A stretch of DNA of 34,522 nt from a bacterium (GTDB lineage: Bacteria; Joyebacterota; Joyebacteria; Joyebacterales; Joyebacteraceae). The DNA is taken from positions 1 to 34,522 of the forward strand of contig JALGWI010000035.1 of NCBI GenBank assembly GCA_025774245.1, written 5' to 3'. Below the pieces are notes generated by a model, which was not told where the DNA came from, did no database searches, and saw only the letters and a program-made list of their open reading frames with translations. Numbering within the stretch: position 1 is the stretch's first letter; each line of letters begins with the position of its first letter. Position numbers and translations under genes: made by a program. Shown piece after piece: positions 1 through 4,018 of the stretch.

Positions 1-961
1 GCTGTACGCGTTCTCGTACGGGCCGAAGGTCGAGGCTCTGGCGGCTCCGTCGCCCGTGTCGGTACCGCTGTAGTACCAGGCAGAGACGCCGCTGCCTTCC
101 CAGTTGGAGCCCTCGGGCATCTCGACCCTGCCGCCGCCCCAGTAGTGGACCTTGTCGTTCGCGTCCCAGCCGATGTTCGCGTCTCCGCCATTGTCGCCGG
201 GACTGATGCCTCCCCAGAGGAGGACCGGGCCCTGATAGCCGTAGTACTGGAGCCCCGGGCGCGAACCGCTGCTGTTCAGGCGCGCCTCATCAACCAGGAC
301 GTCACCATCCTCGTTCTCGGGCGCCCCACCGGACGACTTCACAGCGAAGACGTCTGCCTTGATGGGCCCCATGATCCTGAGTCGATTCGGGTAGCAACCG
401 TAGTCCCTCGCCGGGACGTTACCGACGACGAGGTTGCCCCACGTGCTGCCCCCGAGGGAGGTTGTGGAACCCGAACTTGTACCAGCTGTAGTGGTAGTGG
501 CGGTCGTCGAACGCCATCTCGATGAAGATCGACGTGTTCTTGTAGATGCTGCCCGCGACGAAGAACTGGACCCAGTTGGTGTTGCCGTAGGCCCACTGAT
601 CCTTGAGCTCGTCGTCCGCGTCCTCGCTCTTCTTCACGAGCTGGTTCGTCTTCAGGCCGATGGGCGTGAGGTTCAGGCGGACGCCGAACAGGTTCCCGAC
701 CTTGTCGATGAAGGTCGCGTCGTTCAGCTGCTTCTTCCCGAGCGTGTCGCCGTCCGGCTCGCCGGCATCCGGGTCCTGATAGCCGTTGCGCATGAACCGC
801 TGGCCATACGCGTTGAGCCTCGGGAACCCCGAATGGCACGTCCGGCACGAGACACCGTACTTCCGTGACCACTGCGCGGTTGCCGATGCCGTGGAGGCAA
901 GCAACGCCACCATGAACGCCAGCACAACGCACGTAAGCACCACGCGGTGCACAGTCTTCAT
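1..961 (-). CDS. Monoheme cytochrome c / porin-like outer-membrane protein, frameshifted and partial
   Basis: The ATG at 961 follows a strong ribosome site (AAGGAGG). The protein opens with a signal peptide (residues 1-27, ending near ASA). A single CxxCH haem c site follows at C39-H43, inside a WSRKYGVSCRTCHSG context. Such N-termini occur on cytochrome-porin fusions and on related outer-membrane proteins with one N-terminal haem. The rest is rich in alternating aromatic and polar residues, as in beta-strands. The starting frame stops at 419. One base less in the run of five C at 449-453 (G on the coding strand) restores an open frame from 444 to the window edge. That continuation reads TWGNLVVGNVPARDYG and about 130 further residues with no stop. 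The gene is therefore either a recent pseudogene or carries a sequencing error. The C-terminus lies outside the window. A Cyc2-like role in electron transfer across the outer membrane is possible but unproven. Confidence 0.7.
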
Positions 962-2368: not shown

Positions 2369-4018
2369 CTAGATGCTCAGATGCTTGACGTTCCACTTCA
2401 CCGTGATGAGGTCGAAGACCACCCTCGTGGCGATGATCGCCGTGAACATGCTCGCGAGAATGCCGAGAGAGAGCGTGACCGCGAATCCCTTGATGGGGCC
2501 GCTTCCGAACCTGAGGAGGACACCGGCGGCGATCAGCGTCGTCACGTTTGCATCCAGAATCGTCACGAGCGCGCGCTCGTACCCGTCGCGGATCGCGGCT
2601 CGGATCGTCTTCCTGTTTCGGAGCTCCTCGCGGATCCGCTCGAAGATGAGGACGTTCGCGTCGACCGCCATGCCGATCGTCAGGATGATTCCCGCGAGGC
2701 CGGGGAGCGTAAGCGCCGGTTTCGGGTTCACCGGGAGGCTCGACATGAGCGCGACGATGAGGAGGATGTTCGCCGCGAGCGCCCCGATCGCGACGGCTCC
2801 CGCAGCTCGGTAGTAGACAAGCATGAAGATGACGACGAGAAGTCCGCCGATCATCATCGCTCGGAGGCCGAGCGTGATCGAGTCGCGTCCGAGCGACGGG
2901 CCGACGGTCCGCTCCTCGACGATGGTCATCGGCGCCGGGAGCCTGCCGGCCCGGAGGAGGATTACGAGGTCACGCGCCTCCTCGTCGGTGAAGTTGCCCG
3001 TGATCGAGGCGGGCGTGCCCGCCGGAATCCTCGAGCGGATGACGGGGGCCGAGTTGACCACGCCGTCGAGAACCAAGGCCACGAACTCCCCTATGTGGGC
3101 GCCCGTGTGCTCGGCGAAATCACGGCCGCCGCTGCGCGTGAGCCGCATCGACACGCCCGGCGCGTTCGGATAGTCGGAGTCGAGGCCGGGCCGCATGTCG
3201 GCCGAGATGACGACCGATCCCGTCATGAGCGCCTCTCTCGACATCACGTAGAATGCCCTGTAGTCCTGCTCGTCCTGCCATCGGGACGTGTCCTTGTCCC
3301 AGCCGAGCCTGACCCGCGGTGTTGTCGTCGGATCGTCGGGGTCGTGCGGAAGGATCTCGTCGAGGTCGAGTCTGGCGAGCTGCCGCTTGGCCCACGGCAC
3401 GTCCTCCTCCAGGAAGAACGGGATCTGCGACTGGAACCGTATCCTTGCGGAGAACGGCCGCTCCCTCTGCAACTGCTCCAACTCGGACAGCTGCAGGTCG
3501 TTCTCGGAATCGGGCTCCATCTCACCGTACGCGATGAGCGTGTCCCTGAGCGCCCGGTCGATCCCGCGCAGCGTGAGATCCATCTGCTCGGGCGGCTCCA
3601 CCGGAACGAACTCGAGGAGCGCCGTGCGACCGATCAGTCGCTTCGCCCGCTGCTCGTCCTCGAGACCCGGCAGCTGGACGATGATCCGGTTGTCGCCCTC
3701 CCTCTGGATCGAGGGCTCGGCCACGCCGAACTGGTCGATCCGGTTGCTGATGACCTCGAGTGCCCGGTCCATCACGTCCGCCGCCTGATCGGCGGGGAGC
3801 CCTTCCTTGTCTACCTCGAGCACGAGGTGCATGCCGCCCTTGAGGTCGAGACCGAGCTTGAGCGACTGGCCTTCGAGGGCCTCCACCTGCTCCACCGGCG
3901 TGTTCGCCTTCTGCTCGTCGGAGAGCGAAAGGAACCGGAAGGTGTACGAGGCTCTCCAACCGGCCCAGACCAGCACCACCACTACTAAGATGATCTTCCA
4001 CCGCATTTTCGATGTCAT
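2369..4018 (-). CDS. secD: Protein translocase subunit SecD
   Basis: This is the larger partner of SecF in the proton-driven Sec accessory complex. The product is 549 residues, within the family range. It shows TM1 at about 7-23 and GLDLKGG at 56-62. The periplasmic P1 region follows, with NRIDQFGVAEPSIQ and IIVQLPGLED. The RND-like membrane part carries the conserved V452-D453-A454-N455 followed by FERIREELR. The Asp is the residue implicated in proton coupling in this family. The ATG at 4018 is preceded by GGAGGAG with four bases between, which decides this start over the Met at codon 5. There is no yajC upstream; the neighbour there is a secreted beta-helix protein. Confidence 0.97.
   Translation of the reverse strand: MTSKMRWKIILVVVVLVWAGWRASYTFRFLSLSDEQKANTPVEQVEALEGQSLKLGLDLKGGMHLVLEVDKEGLPADQAADVMDRALEVISNRIDQFGVAEPSIQREGDNRIIVQLPGLEDEQRAKRLIGRTALLEFVPVEPPEQMDLTLRGIDRALRDTLIAYGEMEPDSENDLQLSELEQLQRERPFSARIRFQSQIPFFLEEDVPWAKRQLARLDLDEILPHDPDDPTTTPRVRLGWDKDTSRWQDEQDYRAFYVMSREALMTGSVVISADMRPGLDSDYPNAPGVSMRLTRSGGRDFAEHTGAHIGEFVALVLDGVVNSAPVIRSRIPAGTPASITGNFTDEEARDLVILLRAGRLPAPMTIVEERTVGPSLGRDSITLGLRAMMIGGLLVVIFMLVYYRAAGAVAIGALAANILLIVALMSSLPVNPKPALTLPGLAGIILTIGMAVDANVLIFERIREELRNRKTIRAAIRDGYERALVTILDANVTTLIAAGVLLRFGSGPIKGFAVTLSLGILASMFTAIIATRVVFDLITVKWNVKHLSI

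Follow-up and report, generated by a model that had tools for sequence, protein, structure and literature searches.

The left end of the analysed DNA raises the question of what is encoded by a gene that opens with a signal peptide and a haem-binding motif and whose reading frame breaks before the contig ends. The window (the whole stretch of DNA that was analysed, 34,522 nucleotides) belongs to a 3.23 Mb metagenome-assembled genome (completeness 97.4%) of Candidatus Eisenbacteria, from an organism that is uncultured and apparently anaerobic; contig C34 ends at the left edge of the window (G000:C34:1). The explanation that we regard, as a whole, as somewhat probable is that the gene specifies a 16-strand porin with one haem, that this porin would take part in a three-protein relay with the quinone pool in which outward flow is the likelier direction, and that the break is recent or arose in assembly.

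The frame that carries the signal peptide and the haem site is on the minus strand; it starts with an ATG at 961 and runs into a premature stop at 421-419. It encodes the signal peptide region (residues 1-27, MKTVHRVVLTCVVLAFMVALLASTASA, positions 881-961, recognised by inspection, with a predicted cleavage site), the segment ATAQWSRKY (857-883), the haem-binding site CRTCH (residues 39-43, 833-847, evident in the sequence and in the alignment of homologues) and, as delineated by the same alignment, a stretch with FPRLN (a PXL motif) and GxxFMRNGY that includes Met57 (779-832); FPRLNAYGQRFMRNGY lies in this frame as well. A second frame, out of phase with the first, is open on the same strand from 450 to 1 (150 codons to the contig edge) and, according to its homologue matches, encodes barrel strands. 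The G+C content by codon position shows the switch of frame where the break lies, and the product read across the break has 320 residues; its parts 1-175 and 170-320 follow directly on each other in intact genes, the same full-length homologues matching both halves end to end. Because both halves match the same intact homologues and the G+C signal switches frame, they are one gene, well beyond chance; the initial annotation, which described a signal-peptide/CxxCH frame ending at 419, a run of five C at 449-453 and an open frame of the same gene continuing to the edge, was therefore right on these points. The intact homologues have one continuous frame, with identities of 80% and 77% in the same genus and 66-68% in the same family, and more distant intact homologues come from records labelled Nitrospirae, Acidobacteria, Deltaproteobacteria (Myxococcota on the tree) and Candidatus Yanofskybacteria.

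The gene does not stop at the edge. The reverse complement of positions 1-114 is identical to the first 114 bases of contig C105, and C105 continues the gene in frame for about 121 further residues (L023:115-480) to FVNIRTMF and a stop codon, so that the window holds the 5' three quarters (1-961, minus strand) of a gene for about 441 amino acids. Across the join the two contigs are collinear with the two sister genomes, G001 and G002; extended leftward in this way, as had been proposed, the gene has its neighbours in the order of these genomes. Beyond its end, C105 carries a class-I cytochrome c of 174 amino acids (L023:493-1017, a PF00034 profile match) and a NapC/NirT-type tetrahaem cytochrome of 193 amino acids (L023:1023-1604), which matches PF03264 (E 5.8e-10, 39.6 bits against a cut-off of 24.1) and has four CXXCH motifs and, on inspection, an N-terminal membrane anchor. 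Upstream of the barrel gene lie two minus-strand genes, at 1435-2334 and 2369-4018, which we take, from general knowledge of such sequences, to be SecF-like and SecD-like, respectively. The order secD-secF-barrel is common to the window, both sister genomes and L016.

What kind of break this is can be read from the alignment with intact relatives. An AAC (Asn) codon and the codon aligned after it are separated by 13 nucleotides here and by 9 in the relatives (a net difference of +4), and the run of five C (449-453, plus strand) lies inside the 13-nucleotide stretch. The initial annotation had ascribed the break to a single surplus base in this run. Dropping one C does restore the frame, but the product then still has one residue more than the relatives (HN-LPRG-ST versus HN-WFD-ST); judged from the aligned sequences, a short segment has been replaced, adding four nucleotides on balance, and the break is more than a C run with one base too many. 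It is the sole frame break among about 30 genes collinear with the sister genomes. A general homopolymer error rate was rejected as its cause, because just one gene is broken despite the 75 G/C runs of five or more in the window, and apparent multi-frame matches at secD and secF proved to be cross-matches between the two paralogues. Relative to L017, dN/dS is 0.30 before the break and 0.33 after it, compared with 0.32 between intact relatives, which rejects old decay.

Since the break is alone among about 30 genes and constraint downstream of it is normal, we attribute it to a very recent mutation or to an assembly error, a component of the overall explanation that shares the grade given to the whole. 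The idea that it is an artefact draws support from the intactness of the other nearby genes and from the constraint that continues past it, but both observations fit a very recent mutation equally well. A real mutation, leaving a genuine recent pseudogene in a strain that has lost the conduit, is a serious contender that we place somewhat short of probable: the absence of a general homopolymer error and the exchange of 13 for 9 nucleotides, which is no bare run-length slip, speak for it, whereas constraint is not relaxed after the break and the contig ends within the same gene, so assembly is evidently difficult here. That programmed frameshifting accounts for the change of frame is highly improbable; a five-G run does stand on the coding strand at the frame change, but all intact relatives read straight through without an equivalent sequence.

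The barrel protein has no family in Pfam or NCBIfam, and sequence searches of solved structures gave no match. We rely on AF2 models of two intact homologues (not of the broken copy), both of moderate confidence that is lowest in the haem domain and loops: L017 (pLDDT 64, pTM 0.68) and the mature form of L020 (pLDDT 72.5, pTM 0.76) each consist of short helices followed by 16 strands. Their best Foldseek matches are solved 16-strand porins (E 5e-11 for the L017 model and 6e-12 for the L020 model), and the top seven for L017 include OprO and OprP; OprO/OprP templates were likewise reported for Cyc2 by Keffer et al. (PMC8406198). The C-terminal Phe of the FVNIRTMF tail in the C105 part also counts in favour of a barrel. 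Thus the proposed architecture, a single N-terminal haem followed by a beta-rich barrel, is borne out by the homologue models and their porin matches. Met57 and His168 are invariant in eight aligned homologues and, on this conservation, would be candidates for the second (distal) haem ligand.

The resemblance to Cyc2-type conduits that was first noted holds in part. HHalign comparison with a Cyc2 set (Cyc2-like plasmid genes retrieved with a query peptide based on the published consensus) gave a probability of 97.6% and an E value of 3.7e-12 over 131 columns, from the signal peptide to the first strands, and a plasmid search with the new protein returned a single match, a Cyc2-like protein that is a member of this set. 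Of the features by which Cyc2 is recognised, the protein has the signal peptide, one CXXCH near the N-terminus, the PXL motif four residues after it (CHSGFPRL) and, at about 441 amino acids (more than 400 in full-length homologues), the length of at least 365 amino acids; the 16-strand OprO/OprP-like porin is found in homologues L017 and L020 rather than in the broken copy itself. The sequence AXPXFAR[Q/K][T/Y] upstream of CXXCH, which is unique to Cyc2 and has been used as a screen (PMC8406198), is absent from the aligned members: ATAQWSRKY has A for P, W for F and S for A, and relatives have ATSQWARKY or AVSQWSRKY.

In a tree of 41 sequences, the new clade forms one group (SH-aLRT 91; 100 with L060). 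It stands apart, on long branches, from the six-member Cyc2 set (Cluster 1 and 3 reference sequences were left out of the tree) and is nearest to ARKY-type proteins of the Nitrospirota sample. Looser relatives, detected by profile match, occur in 41 of 198 genomes in the phylum of L019 and in 62 of 297 in that of L020. Because such relatives are common and their motifs intermediate, we consider the protein to be a divergent arm of a broad cytochrome-porin superfamily, with a haem domain related to that of Cyc2 and a 16-strand porin, but without the published signature and, on this tree, in a clade of its own. Cyc2 homologues have already been reported in Eisenbacteria (PMC9769843), and the presence of a Cyc2-like protein in this phylum is therefore not new; what is new here is the clade, its signature and the cassette. 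Separately, L048-L057, in the phylum of L019, form a tight group of AIPAFARKY cytochrome-porins that fits the published Cyc2 signature and is followed by dihaem cytochrome genes.

The barrel, cytochrome c and NapC-type genes adjoin in the host genome, in both sister genomes, in L020 (Acidobacteriota) and in L021 (Myxococcota), and matches to PF03264 and PF00034 are above cut-off in the host, L014, L020 and L021. L019 has the barrel and cytochrome c genes adjacent; it was rejected as a three-gene cassette, as the NapC match of its genome is on another contig. Barrel genes without adjacent cytochromes occur in L015, L016 and L018 (same family) and in L022, L015 and L018 being short contigs. Among 20 genomes of the phylum, 6 have the barrel and 13 a NapC-type gene, which is present in all six barrel genomes. 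The cytochrome c/NapC pair also occurs in loci that have no barrel, where Rnf or multihaem genes adjoin it, indicating that it is a reusable module. Two such Eisenbacteria loci (L081:1610-6789 and L083:6239-10943) have the pair beside Rnf genes, a proximity that suggests a possible link of ferredoxin/NAD to periplasmic cytochromes. A variant at L012 (G048:C8; IAAWGRKY..CSACH..WDLNKDGQEFLRRGH) is a one-haem, barrel-sized protein adjoining a large multihaem NapC-like protein.

Genes for Omp85 and for cytochrome c assembly (PF01578) are present in the host genome. An intact haem-barrel gene also lies at L022:9914-11194 (MGJB01000015.1, Candidatus Yanofskybacteria), on a contig with genes for ribosomal protein S12 and elongation factor G; on the tree this copy and that of Acidobacteriota are sisters, and neither Omp85 nor the cytochrome c assembly family was found in its CPR genome of about 0.8 Mb. 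Either the contig has been misbinned, or the gene was acquired by transfer in a genome that lacks what is needed to use its product.

In the mechanism that we propose, one c-type haem domain at the N-terminus would sit at or in the periplasmic mouth of the 16-strand outer-membrane porin, the membrane-anchored NapC/NirT-type tetrahaem cytochrome would exchange electrons with the quinone pool, and the small class-I cytochrome c would carry them across the periplasm. In this genus, the haem barrel would form the outer end of this relay and exchange electrons with a dissolved redox partner entering its pore from the external side. This partner would have to be small, since a single haem probably does not suffice to bridge the membrane. 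Outward flow would amount to anaerobic respiration on an external acceptor. Against the relay it weighs that the cassette is not strict (barrels occur without adjacent cytochromes in the four loci named above, and the pair without a barrel) and that the models, which represent homologues, are only moderately reliable in the haem domain. The same solitary barrels favour another reading, in which the protein is no respiratory conduit but a porin for small molecules and its haem serves to sense a ligand or to detoxify it; we hold this to be unlikely, because in three phyla the barrel recurs beside cytochrome c and a quinol-type cytochrome.

Direction is the remaining point. The initial annotation had named iron oxidation or other extracellular electron transfer; some form of extracellular electron transfer is still the reading that fits best, but iron oxidation is unsupported. 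Were the protein a true Cyc2-type Fe(II) oxidase, Fe2+ would enter the barrel and reduce the haem, and electrons would pass inward via cytochrome c. This fits the haem-domain homology, the shared architecture and size, the PXL motif and the cytochrome c gene that also comes next downstream of the plasmid Cyc2-like genes. Yet the Cyc2 signature is lacking in the aligned members, the clade is separate from the Cyc2 set (albeit on long branches), the partners are cytochrome c and a NapC/NirT-type quinol cytochrome, and no haem-copper (PF00115) or bd (PF01654) oxidase was found in any of 20 Eisenbacteria genomes, the named control genomes being positive for both; we judge inward flow from iron to be improbable. 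Because of the absence of these oxidases in the phylum and the quinol-oxidising, NapC-type inner partner, outward flow is likelier than Fe(II) oxidation. On the other hand, electron flow through NapC-type proteins can be reversed (Table 1 of PMC10654088 includes CymA in the Mto pathway of iron oxidation), and the lack of an oxidase is compatible with anaerobic Fe(II) oxidation, for example with nitrate. We put forward only tentatively the proposal that a Cyc2-like one-haem porin works outward here, in a phylum in which no oxygen-reducing oxidase is detectable, and that one quinol cytochrome, one cytochrome c and the single-haem barrel together make up a minimal respiratory conduit.

Cyc2 homologues serve as markers of microbial iron oxidation, and for Cyc2 of M. 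ferrooxydans PV-1 a redox potential of +208 mV has been reported. The clade keeps the Cyc2 architecture and differs in signature, partner genes and respiratory setting (no oxidase found), and because of these differences it is a test case for electron export by fused cytochrome-porins. If the outward reading is true, Cyc2-like genes alone do not mark iron oxidation. The clade also suggests that a reported Cyc2 homologue (PMC9769843) is by itself no sufficient ground for classing Eisenbacteria as iron oxidisers. In open-licence papers (titles, abstracts and term counts), we found no description of Cyc2 linked to NapC and outward transfer.

Among known systems, the ARKY-type Cyc2-like cytochrome-porins of Nitrospirota and Acidobacteriota (L048-L057, L061-L072) share the architecture, are the nearest groups on the tree and include intermediate motifs (AVPAWARKY, AIPAWSRKY), but most have the Cyc2 signature, and many have dihaem cytochrome neighbours and no NapC-type gene. 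With the Cyc2 fused cytochrome-porin family (PMC8406198; PMC7029218) the new clade has in common the signal peptide, one N-terminal CXXCH, PXL, a length of about 440 amino acids, the 16-strand OprO/OprP-like porin and a profile homology that extends across the haem domain and the first strands; it differs in having AT[AS]QW[SA]RKY in place of AXPXFAR[Q/K][T/Y] and FMRNGY in place of FKLNGY, in lacking the NNNPT..D.WN stretch of the Cyc2 plasmid set, in its NapC-type partner and in its separate position on the tree. The CymA-type quinol dehydrogenases that serve Mtr/Mto conduits are alike in that a tetrahaem membrane cytochrome links the quinone pool to an outer-membrane conduit, but the Mtr/Mto conduit is a 26-strand barrel around a decahaem protein (PMC8406198), whereas the new one would be a single protein with one haem and 16 strands.
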